64,000 bases of DNA from Candidatus Methylacidiphilales bacterium (GTDB lineage: Bacteria > Verrucomicrobiota > Verrucomicrobiia > Methylacidiphilales > JANWVL01): assembly GCA_025056655.1 (NCBI GenBank), contig JANWVL010000064.1:1-64000 (forward strand). The letters are read 5' to 3'. Of this stretch, positions 35,070 to 61,586 are shown piece by piece (the first letter of the stretch is position 1; each line of letters starts with the position of its first letter). The notes beneath the pieces were generated by a model. It ran no database searches. It had not been told where the DNA came from and saw nothing but the letters and a program-made list of their open reading frames with translations. A program made the position numbers and the translations under genes.

Positions 35070-35149
35070 TTATTCATTCACTAATCTCCCAGCTTGAAAT
35101 GTTTCGGCCTCTGGCTAGACACAGCTAGACAATCCACCCCTTGATATTT

Positions 35150-36682
35150 ATGAACACCCTTCTCCAGGAAATCGAGCAGCGCATAGCGGGAATCAAAACC
35201 ACCATTACCAAGTCAAATGTCGGCACGGTCCGCCAAATAGCCGACGGCGTCGCGAAAATTGAAGGCCTTTCCGACATAGCATTAAACGAAATGATCGAAT
35301 TTGAGGGCAACATTTATGGATTGGCCTTAAACCTCGAAGAAACTGAAGTCGGGGCGATCATTTTAGGCGATTTTGGAAAAATCAAACAAGGCACACGAGC
35401 TCGAGCCACTGGTCGCCTGCTGCAGGTTCCGGTTGGAAAGGAACTACTAGGCCGCGTCATCGATCCTCTCGGCAATCCACTGGACGGTAAAGGACCGATT
35501 AAAACGAACGTCAGTTACCCCGTAGAAAAAATCGCTCCCGGTATTATCAAGCGAAAACCCGTCTCCCAGCCCGTTCAGACAGGAATCATTGCAATAGACG
35601 CCATGATCCCGATCGGCCGCGGACAACGCGAACTCATTATCGGTGACCGCGCCACAGGCAAAACAACCATTGCCATTGATACCATCATCAATCAATCTCG
35701 TATCAATAGTGCCAACGAAGGCAACCCCAATTTCCGCCCACTCTATTCTATCTACGTCGCCATCGGTCAGAAAAATTCAAATATCGCAAGAGTCCTCGAC
35801 GTGCTATCTGAGGCCAACGCCACCCCATACACAATCATCATCGTAGCCAGCGCTTCCGATAGCGCCACCATGCAATACCTGGCCCCATTCGCCGGCGCAG
35901 CCATTGGAGAGTGGTTCATGGACAATGGCATGGACGCCTTGATCGTCTATGATGATCTTTCCAAACACGCCGTTGCCTATCGCCAAGTCTCTTTGGTCTT
36001 AAAACGCCCCTCTGGCCGTGAGGCTTACCCCGGCGACGTTTTCTACCTTCACTCACGCCTCCTCGAGCGTTCAGCTCGTCTCAACGAACAAAACGGCAAC
36101 GGCTCCCTCACCGCACTCCCAATTATCGAAACACAAGCCGGCGACGTCTCCGCCTACATTCCCACGAATGTCATCTCGATCACGGACGGCCAAATCTATC
36201 TCGAGACTGATCTCTTCTACCAAGGCATACGACCCGCCATCTCAGTGGGACTATCGGTTTCACGTGTCGGCTCCGCAGCTCAGATCAAAGCAATGAAACA
36301 AGTCGCTGGCAAAATCAAAGGCGAATTAGCCCAGTTTCGCGAGCTGGCTGCATTCGCGCAATTCGGCTCAGACCTCGATCCCGCAACAAAAGCTCGCATA
36401 GATCGAGGACAACGCATAGTTGAACTCTTCAAGCAGCCACAATACAACCCCATCCCCGTCGAAATCCAAGTCGCACTGCTCTGGGCTATGCAAAATAATT
36501 TCTTCGATCCCATCCCTCTGGATAAAATCAAAGATTTCCAACATAAGCTCACAGAGCACCTCACCATGCGGCACGAGCCCCTACTTGCTGCTATCCGTCA
36601 AAAAGCCGTGATCGACGATCAGATCGCTCAAGAACTCAAAGCTGCGATCACTCTCTTCGCAGAAAACTACAAGTTAAGCTAA
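35150..36682 (+). CDS. atpA: ATP synthase F1 subunit alpha
   Basis: Non-catalytic nucleotide-binding subunit of F1. The ATG start gives 510 residues; a TTG 9 nt upstream is less likely. The P-loop reads GDRATGKTT, where most AtpA have [42 protein letters not shown] and [13 protein letters not shown] (conserved Arg) are typical. Only atpG follows. atpH is not upstream (terminator and peroxiredoxin instead), and atpD and atpC are not downstream, so the F1 genes are split in this genome. Confidence 0.97.
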
Positions 36683-36718
36683 CCAAAATTTACTCCTTAT
36701 CCCCTCCCCTTAAGCTCT

Positions 36719-37615
36719 ATGGCCAACCTCCGCGAAATCCGTCGCCGCATCAAGTCCATCAAAAACACTGCTCAGATCACCAAAGCCATGCAAATGGTGG
36801 CTGCGTCCAAAATGCGCAAAGCACAACAACAAGCCCTCGCCTCCGCTCCTTACCAACGTATCCTCGATCATATCGCTCGTTCATTACACGAAGCTCGCTC
36901 TGGAGCAGACCTCACCCATCCTCTCCTCGACGCACGTCCTCTCCGTCGCCAGACAATAGTTCTCATCACGACCGATAAAGGGCTCTGTGGTGCTCTTAAT
37001 TCCAACCTTCTTCGGGAAACCCTGAAATACGAAAAGGAAAGCCCAGACGTCTCCTTCGACTACATCACCATAGGCAGAAAAGGTCGCCAATTCATCGCTC
37101 GACTCGGCCGTTCTCTAACCGCAGATTTCGAGCTCAAGGAAAGCTTTGGTTTTCGCGACACCAAAAAAATCAGCCAATTCCTCATCCAATCTTTCTTAGA
37201 TAATCAAACAGACAAAATCATCGTAGCCTATTCTGAATTCATCAATACTTTGGCTCAAAAACCAGTCCTCACTCAGCTTCTTCCTCTTGGCTCAGCCGCA
37301 ACAGTGACGACCTCTGCTTTATCTGATGCCAGCCCCTCGGACAATTCCCCCGTAGCTCAATACCTCTTCGAACCACACCCTGTCGAGCTTCTGAATAACA
37401 TGCTGCCTTACTTCGTCCACTACTCCCTCTACCAAAAAGTGCTCTCCGCAAGAGCTTCTGAACATTCAGCACGCATGGTGGCAATGAAAAACGCCACCGA
37501 CAACGCCCAGACCATTATCAAAGAACTCACACTAGATTATAACAAACAGCGGCAAGCCAACATCACCACAGAGCTCCTAGAAATTGCCACAGCACAAATG
37601 GCTATGAATCAATAG
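36719..37615 (+). CDS. atpG: ATP synthase F1 subunit gamma
   Basis: Central rotor shaft of F1. It is 298 residues. The N-terminal helix has NLREIRRRIKSIKNTAQIT and KAMQMVAASKMRKAQQQ. The Rossmann-like middle has ITTDKGLCGALN, and the C-terminal helix has SEHSARMVAMKNATDNA and ITTELLEIATAQMAM. It is separated from atpA by 36 nt, then converges on the acyltransferase gene 18 nt away. Confidence 0.97.
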   Translation: MANLREIRRRIKSIKNTAQITKAMQMVAASKMRKAQQQALASAPYQRILDHIARSLHEARSGADLTHPLLDARPLRRQTIVLITTDKGLCGALNSNLLRETLKYEKESPDVSFDYITIGRKGRQFIARLGRSLTADFELKESFGFRDTKKISQFLIQSFLDNQTDKIIVAYSEFINTLAQKPVLTQLLPLGSAATVTTSALSDASPSDNSPVAQYLFEPHPVELLNNMLPYFVHYSLYQKVLSARASEHSARMVAMKNATDNAQTIIKELTLDYNKQRQANITTELLEIATAQMAMNQ

Positions 37616-58860: not shown

Positions 58861-60408
58861 ATGACCCCTGAGGATTTTCCTAAAGCCTACGAACCCCAGC
58901 GCGTGCAAGATCGCATCTATCAGGAATGGCTCGAAAAGGGCTACTGGCATGCCAACCCACGAAGCAATAAGCCCCCATTCTCCATCGTCATGCCTCCACC
59001 CAATATCACAGGAGTCCTCACCTTGGGACACGTTTTGAACAATACGTTGCAAGATATCCTCTGCCGCAGAGCTAGAATGCAAGGCTACGAAGTGCTCTGG
59101 CTCCCTGGCACGGATCACGCCGGCCTCGCCACACAGACGGCCGTTGAAAAAAACATTAAAAAAACTGAAGGCAAGACGCGTTTCGATTTCTCACGTGAAG
59201 CCTTTTTAGAAAAGGTTTGGGAATGGCAAAAAAAACACGGCAACATCATCATCGAGCAACTTAAAAAACTCGGATGCTCCTGTGATTGGCAACGCCAGCG
59301 TTTCACCCTCGATGAGGCATACACTCGAGCTGTGCAACGTGTATTCATTACACTCTATGAGCGCGGCTACATCTACCGCGGCTTGCGGATGGTGAACTGG
59401 TGCCCAGCCTCACTTACCGCTATTTCAGACGAAGAAGTGATCCCCAAGGCTCAAAAATCAACCCTATATTATATTGATTATATATTGGAAGACGATCGAG
59501 ATAAACTCACAGTCGCCACTACCCGCCCAGAAACAATCATGGCCGACGTCGCAGTAGCAGTTCATCCCCACGACGAGAGGTATAAAAAATATATCGGCCG
59601 AAACGTTCGCCGTCCCCTTGCTCCAGCTCTTATTCCAATTATTCCAGACCCTGCTATCGACCCAAAATTCGGAACAGGTGTTCTCAAAGTCACACCTGCC
59701 CATGACAAGCTAGACTTTGAAATTGGACAACGTCACAACCTTCCAATCATAGATATCCTCACACCAGACGGAAAAGTATCCTGTCCACAAGAGCCCGAAT
59801 TAGACGGCCTCGACCGCTTTATTGCAAGAAAACGCGCCGCTGAAATTTTACAATCTCGATCACTCCTATCAAAAGAAGAGCCCTACGAAAATAATGTTGG
59901 TTTTTCGGAGCGTGCCGATGTGCCCATAGAACCTCGCCTATCCTGGCAGTGGTTTCTGGATTACAAGAAAATGGCCAATAACAAAATGATTGAGCTAGCC
60001 TTGCAAGTCGTCAGACAGCGATTAATCGAGTTTGTACCATCCCATTGGGAAAAGGTCTACGCGCATTGGCTCGAGAATATTCAAGATTGGTGCATCTCCA
60101 GGCAGGTCTGGTGGGGGCATCGTATCCCAGTTTGGTATGCTCCAGAGGCTCCAGATCCTTCTCATCATGAGGTGCCCAAGCACCTGATTCGTTGCCAGAT
60201 CGAATCGCCTGGAGAAGGCTGGAAACAAGACCCTAACACACTAGACACTTGGTTTTCTTCTTGGCTCTGGGCTTTTGAAACAATGGATGAGGAGACCCGT
60301 CAAAAGTTTTATCCAACCAGCGTTTTAGTCACTGGGCCGGATATCATTTTTCTGTGGGTAGCCCGGATGATCATCGCTGGACTAGAATTCAAGCCAGGTA
60401 AAGTTTAG
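58861..60408 (+). CDS. valS: Valyl-tRNA synthetase, truncated before KMSKS
   Basis: N-terminal part of ValRS, 515 of the usual 880-950 residues. Present: the HIGH-type motif PPPNITGVLTLGHVLNN (TLGH at 54-57), the editing CP1 domain with TTRPETIMADVAVAVHP, and DTWFSSWLWAFE up to LVTGPDIIFLWVARMIIAG. It ends at LEFKPGKV, just before the region that should contain KMSKS, the catalytic end and the tRNA anticodon-binding domain. No other frame continues it, because the next gene starts 14 nt on. It could edit but not charge tRNA. It may be a pseudogene or duplicate, one part of a split enzyme, or an assembly join. Confidence 0.85.
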   Translation: MTPEDFPKAYEPQRVQDRIYQEWLEKGYWHANPRSNKPPFSIVMPPPNITGVLTLGHVLNNTLQDILCRRARMQGYEVLWLPGTDHAGLATQTAVEKNIKKTEGKTRFDFSREAFLEKVWEWQKKHGNIIIEQLKKLGCSCDWQRQRFTLDEAYTRAVQRVFITLYERGYIYRGLRMVNWCPASLTAISDEEVIPKAQKSTLYYIDYILEDDRDKLTVATTRPETIMADVAVAVHPHDERYKKYIGRNVRRPLAPALIPIIPDPAIDPKFGTGVLKVTPAHDKLDFEIGQRHNLPIIDILTPDGKVSCPQEPELDGLDRFIARKRAAEILQSRSLLSKEEPYENNVGFSERADVPIEPRLSWQWFLDYKKMANNKMIELALQVVRQRLIEFVPSHWEKVYAHWLENIQDWCISRQVWWGHRIPVWYAPEAPDPSHHEVPKHLIRCQIESPGEGWKQDPNTLDTWFSSWLWAFETMDEETRQKFYPTSVLVTGPDIIFLWVARMIIAGLEFKPGKV

Positions 60409-60422
60409 CCATAGATTACAGT

Positions 60423-61586
60423 GTGTCAGAAAGAGCGAGAATAAAAATAGCTGGCCTTGGAGCAATATCCGCCGCAGGAAACAGCCCTGAGGCGATCTTT
60501 GAGTCTATAGTCGAAAAACGTCGTCCTTTTACTCAGCGAGCCCAACCGCCCCTCCTCCTAGGATGGATAGATGATACCGCAATCGAGAAGCCACCCGTTG
60601 GCCTAAAAAACTGGCTCGGCACCCCACGTATCGCTAAAATAAGCGCCACTTCTGCCTTCCAAGCTTGGAAAGACAGTCATTGGCCTTTACCTGCTGAGAT
60701 ATTTTATCTCGGCACAGCTAGAGGCTGGAAAGTTAACGAAGAGTCCCCTTGGACAGAAAAGCTACTATGGACTCCCTGGACTTCTCTTACGGGCTACGTC
60801 GCAAGTGCCATCCAATGTTCAGAACAGGTTCTCTCTCTTCAAGCTGCATGCGCCTCAGGAGCCGTAGCCATCATCGAAGCCGCCCTGAAACTTTTAAATT
60901 CTCAGGCCAAGCGTGCTATCGCCGGCGGAGCCGACTCTGCATTATCCCCCGAGCAACTCACACCGCTCCAAAGGATGGGAATGATTGATGAGAGCACGGA
61001 TAAAGACAGACTTTCTTACCCTTTCAGTCAAAGCCCGAAAGGAATGATCCCAGCAGAGGGCGCCGCTTTTCTCGCCTTAGAGAAAATTTCAGACTCATTT
61101 AGCCCGGGTGATATCGAGCTAGCGGGTTGGGCGTGGAGAAGTGATCCTAAATTGCGTTGGGGAGAAAATGGCCAATGGATTGGTGAAGTCCTAGATTGCG
61201 CACTTCAAACAGCAAGGTGTTCACATCTTGAACTCGAAGCGCTCTGGGCGCACGGCTCTGGCACACCTACTAACGACAAACAAGAATGGGAAAACTTAGA
61301 GGCTTGGAGACAGAAGACTGGCTGTAAACGATTGATCCTACTATCCACCAAAGGAACAACAGGGCATGCGTTTGGCGCTACATCGGCAATAGAAGCAGCA
61401 CTGGCTTGTGTTGCCTTGCAAAAGAAAGTCTTGCCTCCCTGGGTAGGAGATCAAAAGGAAACTCGGCCAAGTTCATTGGTACAATTAATATCTAATCCGC
61501 AACCTATCGGCTCTCCATGGATCGCAACTTTATCCATGGGGTTCTGGGGGGAAACAGCAGCTTTGGTTTTCCGACGACACGATTAA
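60423..61586 (+). CDS. Beta-ketoacyl synthase (KAS II-like)
   Basis: Condensing enzyme of the FabF/FabB superfamily, 387 residues with a GTG start. The catalytic triad is present: Cys143 in AACASGAVAI, His277 in WAHGSGTPTNDK and His315 in STKGTTGHAFGATSA, with Lys310. The C-terminal GFGG motif reads GFWGETAALVF. It is divergent from standard FabF and somewhat short; relatives act in aryl polyene or other polyketide-like pathways. No acyl carrier protein or other fab genes are adjacent. It begins 14 nt after the truncated valS, exactly where that gene breaks off. Confidence 0.82.
   Translation: MSERARIKIAGLGAISAAGNSPEAIFESIVEKRRPFTQRAQPPLLLGWIDDTAIEKPPVGLKNWLGTPRIAKISATSAFQAWKDSHWPLPAEIFYLGTARGWKVNEESPWTEKLLWTPWTSLTGYVASAIQCSEQVLSLQAACASGAVAIIEAALKLLNSQAKRAIAGGADSALSPEQLTPLQRMGMIDESTDKDRLSYPFSQSPKGMIPAEGAAFLALEKISDSFSPGDIELAGWAWRSDPKLRWGENGQWIGEVLDCALQTARCSHLELEALWAHGSGTPTNDKQEWENLEAWRQKTGCKRLILLSTKGTTGHAFGATSAIEAALACVALQKKVLPPWVGDQKETRPSSLVQLISNPQPIGSPWIATLSMGFWGETAALVFRRHD

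Follow-up and report, generated by a model that had tools for sequence, protein, structure and literature searches.

ATP binding by class I aminoacyl-tRNA synthetases takes both halves of the Rossmann fold, the one with HIGH and the one with KMSKS, and artificially split members of the class (MetRS and IleRS) assemble into active enzymes. Natural fissions of essential synthetases are, to our knowledge, rare. In Aquifex aeolicus, leucyl-tRNA synthetase (LeuRS), a class Ia enzyme, is an alpha-beta heterodimer encoded by two separate genes, the N-subunit containing HIGH and the CP1 editing domain and the C-subunit containing KMSKS and the tRNA-binding domains. That synthetases can function when split is shown by natural cases, namely Aquifex LeuRS, the alanyl-tRNA synthetase (AlaRS) of Nanoarchaeum equitans, and PheT of the Altiarchaeales (PMC4975002, PMC10036535), as well as by a PheT that was split by engineering and is viable in Mycoplasma pneumoniae (PMC12494982). 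Aquifex LeuRS is split within its leucine-specific domain, to judge by the title of a paper by Ma et al. (2006; cited in PMC4975002); in LeuRS, this domain is inserted beside the KMSKS motif (AgnB2 loop 567-571 compared with Gln573 of KQSKS; PMC5059758). The fissions described in the papers that we found concern LeuRS, AlaRS, and PheRS-beta, not valyl-tRNA synthetase (ValRS); in a search of open-access papers, no split ValRS was found.

The valS gene described here comes from a metagenome-assembled genome (2.44 Mb in 178 contigs, 96.1% complete, 3.1% contaminated) belonging to an order of the Verrucomicrobiota that includes the Methylacidiphilaceae, and it is the one genome of its family in our collection. 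The window, that is, the whole stretch of DNA analyzed, comprises positions 1-64000 of contig C64 (71,236 bp). The features referred to below are as follows; all coordinates are those of the window, except for the last entry, which lies on contig C55 of the same genome.

58861..60408, + strand: valS-N, an ORF of 515 aa, proposed N-terminal subunit of a split ValRS
59020..59031, + strand: HIGH-type signature T-L-G-H (residues 54-57), read from the sequence, in the form usual for the clade
59464..59886, + strand: CP1 editing domain (residues 202-342), from a phmmer match to the isolated Thermus thermophilus ValRS editing domain (1wka/1wk9)
60394..60422, + strand: proposed fission junction, comprising the final residues of the linker (PGKV), the TAG stop (60406-60408), and a 14-nt spacer to the GTG of the ketoacyl-synthase gene, from an alignment of 17 homologues
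60423..61586, + strand: beta-ketoacyl-synthase-like gene (387 aa), complete, with a GTG start, outside the ValRS enzyme
C55:46910-48073, + strand: valS-C, an ORF of 387 aa from the first ATG, in the interior of a contig of 139 kb

The product of valS-N comprises the initial portion of the Rossmann catalytic domain, including its HIGH-type motif, the CP1 editing domain, and the helix and strand that lead to GLEFKPGKV; its C terminus is ...IIAGLEFKPGKV-TAG, the ending of the 515-codon frame also being written as ...ARMIIAGLEFKPGKV-TAG. The original prediction had described a frame open for 515 codons with the HIGH motif and the full editing domain, and the ORF, the match to the valS model TIGR00422 (659 bits; cut-off, 612), and the matches to 1wka/1wk9 agree with that description. 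In the HIGH region, which reads GVLTLGHVL, the first His is replaced by Thr, and GVLTLGHVLNN is the consensus of 28 homologues, so the TLGH form is typical of the clade. It had also been claimed that the gene stops at GLEFKPGKV, lacks its C-terminal part locally, and is followed 14 nt later by a ketoacyl synthase. All of this was borne out: the TIGR00422 match covers profile positions 2-504 of 863, residues 2-507 of T. thermophilus ValRS (1gax; 862 aa) are aligned by valS-N, no remnant of the C-terminal part was found at the valS locus in the window, and a GTG-started ORF begins at 60423. Since valS-N sits 11 kb from the end of its ~71-kb contig, the truncation is no edge effect.

The original prediction reasoned that the genome must contain a complete valS or the missing half in another place, and it is the missing half that was found. 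A search of the genome with the valS model gave one further ValRS-type match, C55:46949-48001, which falls in an open frame of 427 codons; no other ORF in the bin begins around KMSKS. The valS-C frame starts just before that motif and encodes what valS-N lacks of the enzyme. No full-length valS was found by the same search of the bin, which is 96% complete, the other strong matches to the model, in frames of 908, 835, and 524 codons, being taken as other class I synthetases. The valS-C product occupies profile positions 506-860 of TIGR00422 (505-860 in the genome search), matches residues 510-859 of 862 in 1gax, and contains the end of the tRNA-synt_1 domain with the KMSKS loop, the anticodon-binding domain Anticodon_1 (PF08264), and the C-terminal coiled coil, Val_tRNA-synt_C (PF10458). 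The gene is flanked upstream by one encoding a HEAT-repeat lipoprotein, whose stop lies 14 nt before valS-C, and downstream by a DUF2062 gene, both of which are intact. In the 1gax and TIGR00422 alignments, valS-N and valS-C together make up one ValRS, with no overlap and no conserved segment missing. Thus, the domains and motifs of a single-chain bacterial ValRS, and all but one of its invariant residues, are present but are distributed over two chains; whereas the family consists of single polypeptides of ~860-950 aa, and the intact homologues examined have ValRS in one chain, here C64 and C55 each carry one ORF, and the two complement each other along the full enzyme.

Alignment with 17 intact homologues from the same order places the cut in a linker that varies in both length and sequence and that connects AGLEF to (I)PF..VYFTGLIRD..GRKMSKS. 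No other 8-residue region of ValRS is less conserved, only 0.5% of 8-residue windows being as variable, and a random break, from misassembly or from the making of a pseudogene, would rarely hit it; we explain the position of the cut by selection for a working product. Of the positions that are invariant in 52 intact homologues, valS-N retains 119 of 120 and valS-C retains 43 of 43. The exception is residue 459 of valS-N (60235-60237), which is Asn, as against Asp in all 52 homologues (QDP-D-xLDTWFSS). Identity in the C part relative to that in the N part is 0.70, within the range of the intact homologues (0.65-0.76). When the halves were placed in trees of their own, each fell inside the order, with a root-to-tip length close to the median. 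The terminal branch of this genome is the longest of 53 sequences in the tree of the C part and the fourth longest in that of the N part, which fits an isolated family, although these branch lengths would also be compatible with some acceleration. Given that the invariant residues are kept and that divergence has been no faster than that of intact homologues, neither half looks like a pseudogene, and decay of either gene is very unlikely; both parts are under purifying selection, as would also be expected of an intact gene that had been misassembled.

An assembly join was among the causes originally put forward, and it would here have to be reciprocal: valS would in reality be intact, and two wrong joins would have exchanged its halves with the HEAT and ketoacyl-synthase neighborhoods. 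The genome is a metagenome-assembled one of 178 contigs and was judged from the assembled contigs alone, the conservation of both halves says nothing on this point because misassembly of an intact gene would give the same picture, and the halves do not differ in transcriptional order with respect to their flanking genes, so that a HEAT-to-ketoacyl-synthase junction could be the other product of such an exchange. However, assemblers join through repeats, yet the longest word common to the two junctions is 9 nt, each 231-nt junction occurs once in the genome, and neither contains a run of N. The two contigs are also alike in GC content (0.482 and 0.471) and in tetranucleotide composition (r = 0.97, higher than for any other contig-sample pair compared), and the short shared word, the unique junctions, and the equal composition argue against misassembly. 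Furthermore, both joins would have had to spare the HEAT gene, the ketoacyl-synthase gene, and every conserved ValRS residue while falling within the 0.5% most variable valS positions, and a HEAT-ketoacyl-synthase neighborhood was not seen in relatives. We consequently regard misassembly as unlikely. Contamination as the origin of contig C55 was rejected, given its composition and the position of both halves within the same order in the trees.

The original prediction had also raised the possibility of a pseudogene. An intact valS could lie in the roughly 4% of the genome that may be missing, in which case the two fragments would be relics of a disrupted second copy. Both halves are free of frameshifts and internal stops, keep all class-wide invariants but one, and show a normal ratio of C-part to N-part identity and root-to-tip lengths near the median; relatives usually have a single valS; and exact complementarity without overlap is unexpected of two relics. 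The conservation of both halves contradicts this explanation, to which we give only a very small probability. It seems highly improbable that the split is a strain-level or very recent rearrangement carried by part of a population whose species normally has an intact valS: a family represented by one genome and ends that are clean and undecayed would fit a recent event, but the split form was assembled as the consensus at both places, and a strain with the split form only would still need a working enzyme. Trans-splicing after expression, by a split intein or a split group I or II intron, would restore a one-chain enzyme, yet valS-N stops 4 residues past the conserved GLEFK, with the ketoacyl-synthase gene 14 nt farther on, and the 16 residues that valS-C has ahead of IPF are too few for an intein. 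A search for Rfam families, introns included, found none in the window or at the valS-C locus, and with such short termini trans-splicing was rejected as having a vanishingly small chance of being correct.

Of the three alternatives originally proposed, the two-part ValRS, which was singled out as notable, is the best supported, and the rearrangement that was also suggested is probably the way in which it arose. In our judgment, valS-N and valS-C most likely represent a natural gene fission by which rearrangement produced a two-chain ValRS that assembles noncovalently. The rearrangement would have cut an ancestral single-chain valS at the variable linker, leaving two unlinked genes, and a rearrangement-prone genome is a plausible background for such an origin. 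The N-chain would supply HIGH, the ATP- and valine-binding part, and CP1 editing; the C-chain would supply the last Rossmann strand, the KMSKS loop, the anticodon-binding domain with tRNA recognition, and the C-terminal coiled coil. Each chain would be expressed on its own, with no splicing by intein or intron, and the two would associate noncovalently, the active site needing both for activity. Single-chain AlphaFold2 models agree with an obligate complex: modeled alone, valS-N has a mean pLDDT of 85.6, with only its last four residues below 50, and valS-C, for which 1gax was the top Foldseek match, is modeled with confidence over most of the part beyond about residue 45, with residues 1-29 below 50. 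This low-confidence stretch includes most of the conserved strand of valS-C, as expected of a strand predicted to fold only against the N-half, although a shallow alignment may be the cause instead. The whole is likely to be the first natural two-gene ValRS, an obligate heterodimer encoded at unlinked loci with its Rossmann fold divided between HIGH and KMSKS, such that neither chain would activate valine alone.

Such an enzyme would resemble Aquifex LeuRS in being a class Ia synthetase encoded by two separate genes, but it is a different enzyme, and it is cut ~20 residues before KMSKS, so that the C-subunit also carries a conserved strand; presumably, the ValRS split arose independently, in the Verrucomicrobiota. 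The Altiarchaeales pheT (PMC4975002) is similar in several respects: it is an essential gene whose split was inferred from metagenome genomes, its parts lie at nonadjacent loci on different contigs, the break is in a region of poor homology, and nearly all conserved residues are kept. It differs in being a class II, archaeal gene cut just before the B5 domain, outside the catalytic core, and its split was found in several genomes and had read support, whereas the ValRS split is seen in the assembled contigs of one genome. AlaRS of N. equitans (PMC10036535) is also naturally split but is a class II enzyme, and the catalytic domain is intact in its alpha subunit, which by itself charges weakly, in contrast to the ValRS chains, neither of which would have a complete active site. 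A split through a class I active site tests in nature the idea that HIGH and KMSKS lie on separable modules, and it offers a ready-made split point for ValRS engineering and perhaps a marker for the lineage of an uncultured family.

No other internal split of valS was found among 62 genomes of the order or, in a sample of 385 genomes of the class, among the best-scoring matches listed, which are those covered by the frame lengths of that survey. The C-parts covered there sit in longer frames, apart from apparent C-halves in five genomes (G042, G043, G343, G376, and G378), which were short frames at contig ends and were dismissed as edge truncations. In G043, ValRS pieces lie at two contig ends (L118 on C150 and L117 on C100) and overlap in the homologous region, and one has an in-frame TGA; this is probably a fragmented assembly or a strain mixture. 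In G007, a genome of the same order but of family f8, the best match (G007:C12:172459-173829) is 34% identical, lies in an 872-codon frame, and is no close relative of the order's ValRS, which suggests that the enzyme there may have been replaced by a distant type.

The comparison of synteny with relatives that had been recommended at the outset revealed no conserved gene order around valS, whether in the neighbors of valS in 20 stretches of the order, the neighbors of the HEAT gene in 14, or the positions of the DUF2062 gene and trmD, and neither the ancestral locus nor the event can therefore be reconstructed. A trmD-rplS-rnhB-yraN cluster lies 3-6 kb from valS in one relative (G004); in complete genomes, trmD and valS are hundreds of kilobases apart, and the proximity in G004 was therefore taken as chance. 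Promoter scans gave no more sites than expected by chance. The ketoacyl-synthase-like product (60423-61586) has just 25-34% identity to anything in the order; its gene adjoins yraN/rnhB, and its best partial NCBIfam matches are to fabF-like and cispentacin AmcF models. Genes are dispersed in this genome in a further instance: elsewhere in the window, atpA and atpG form an isolated pair (35141-37615) between an upstream peroxiredoxin-like gene and a downstream acyltransferase-like gene on the opposite strand, and atpD is located on another contig (C61:2446-3834), the F-ATPase operon being broken up in this genome.
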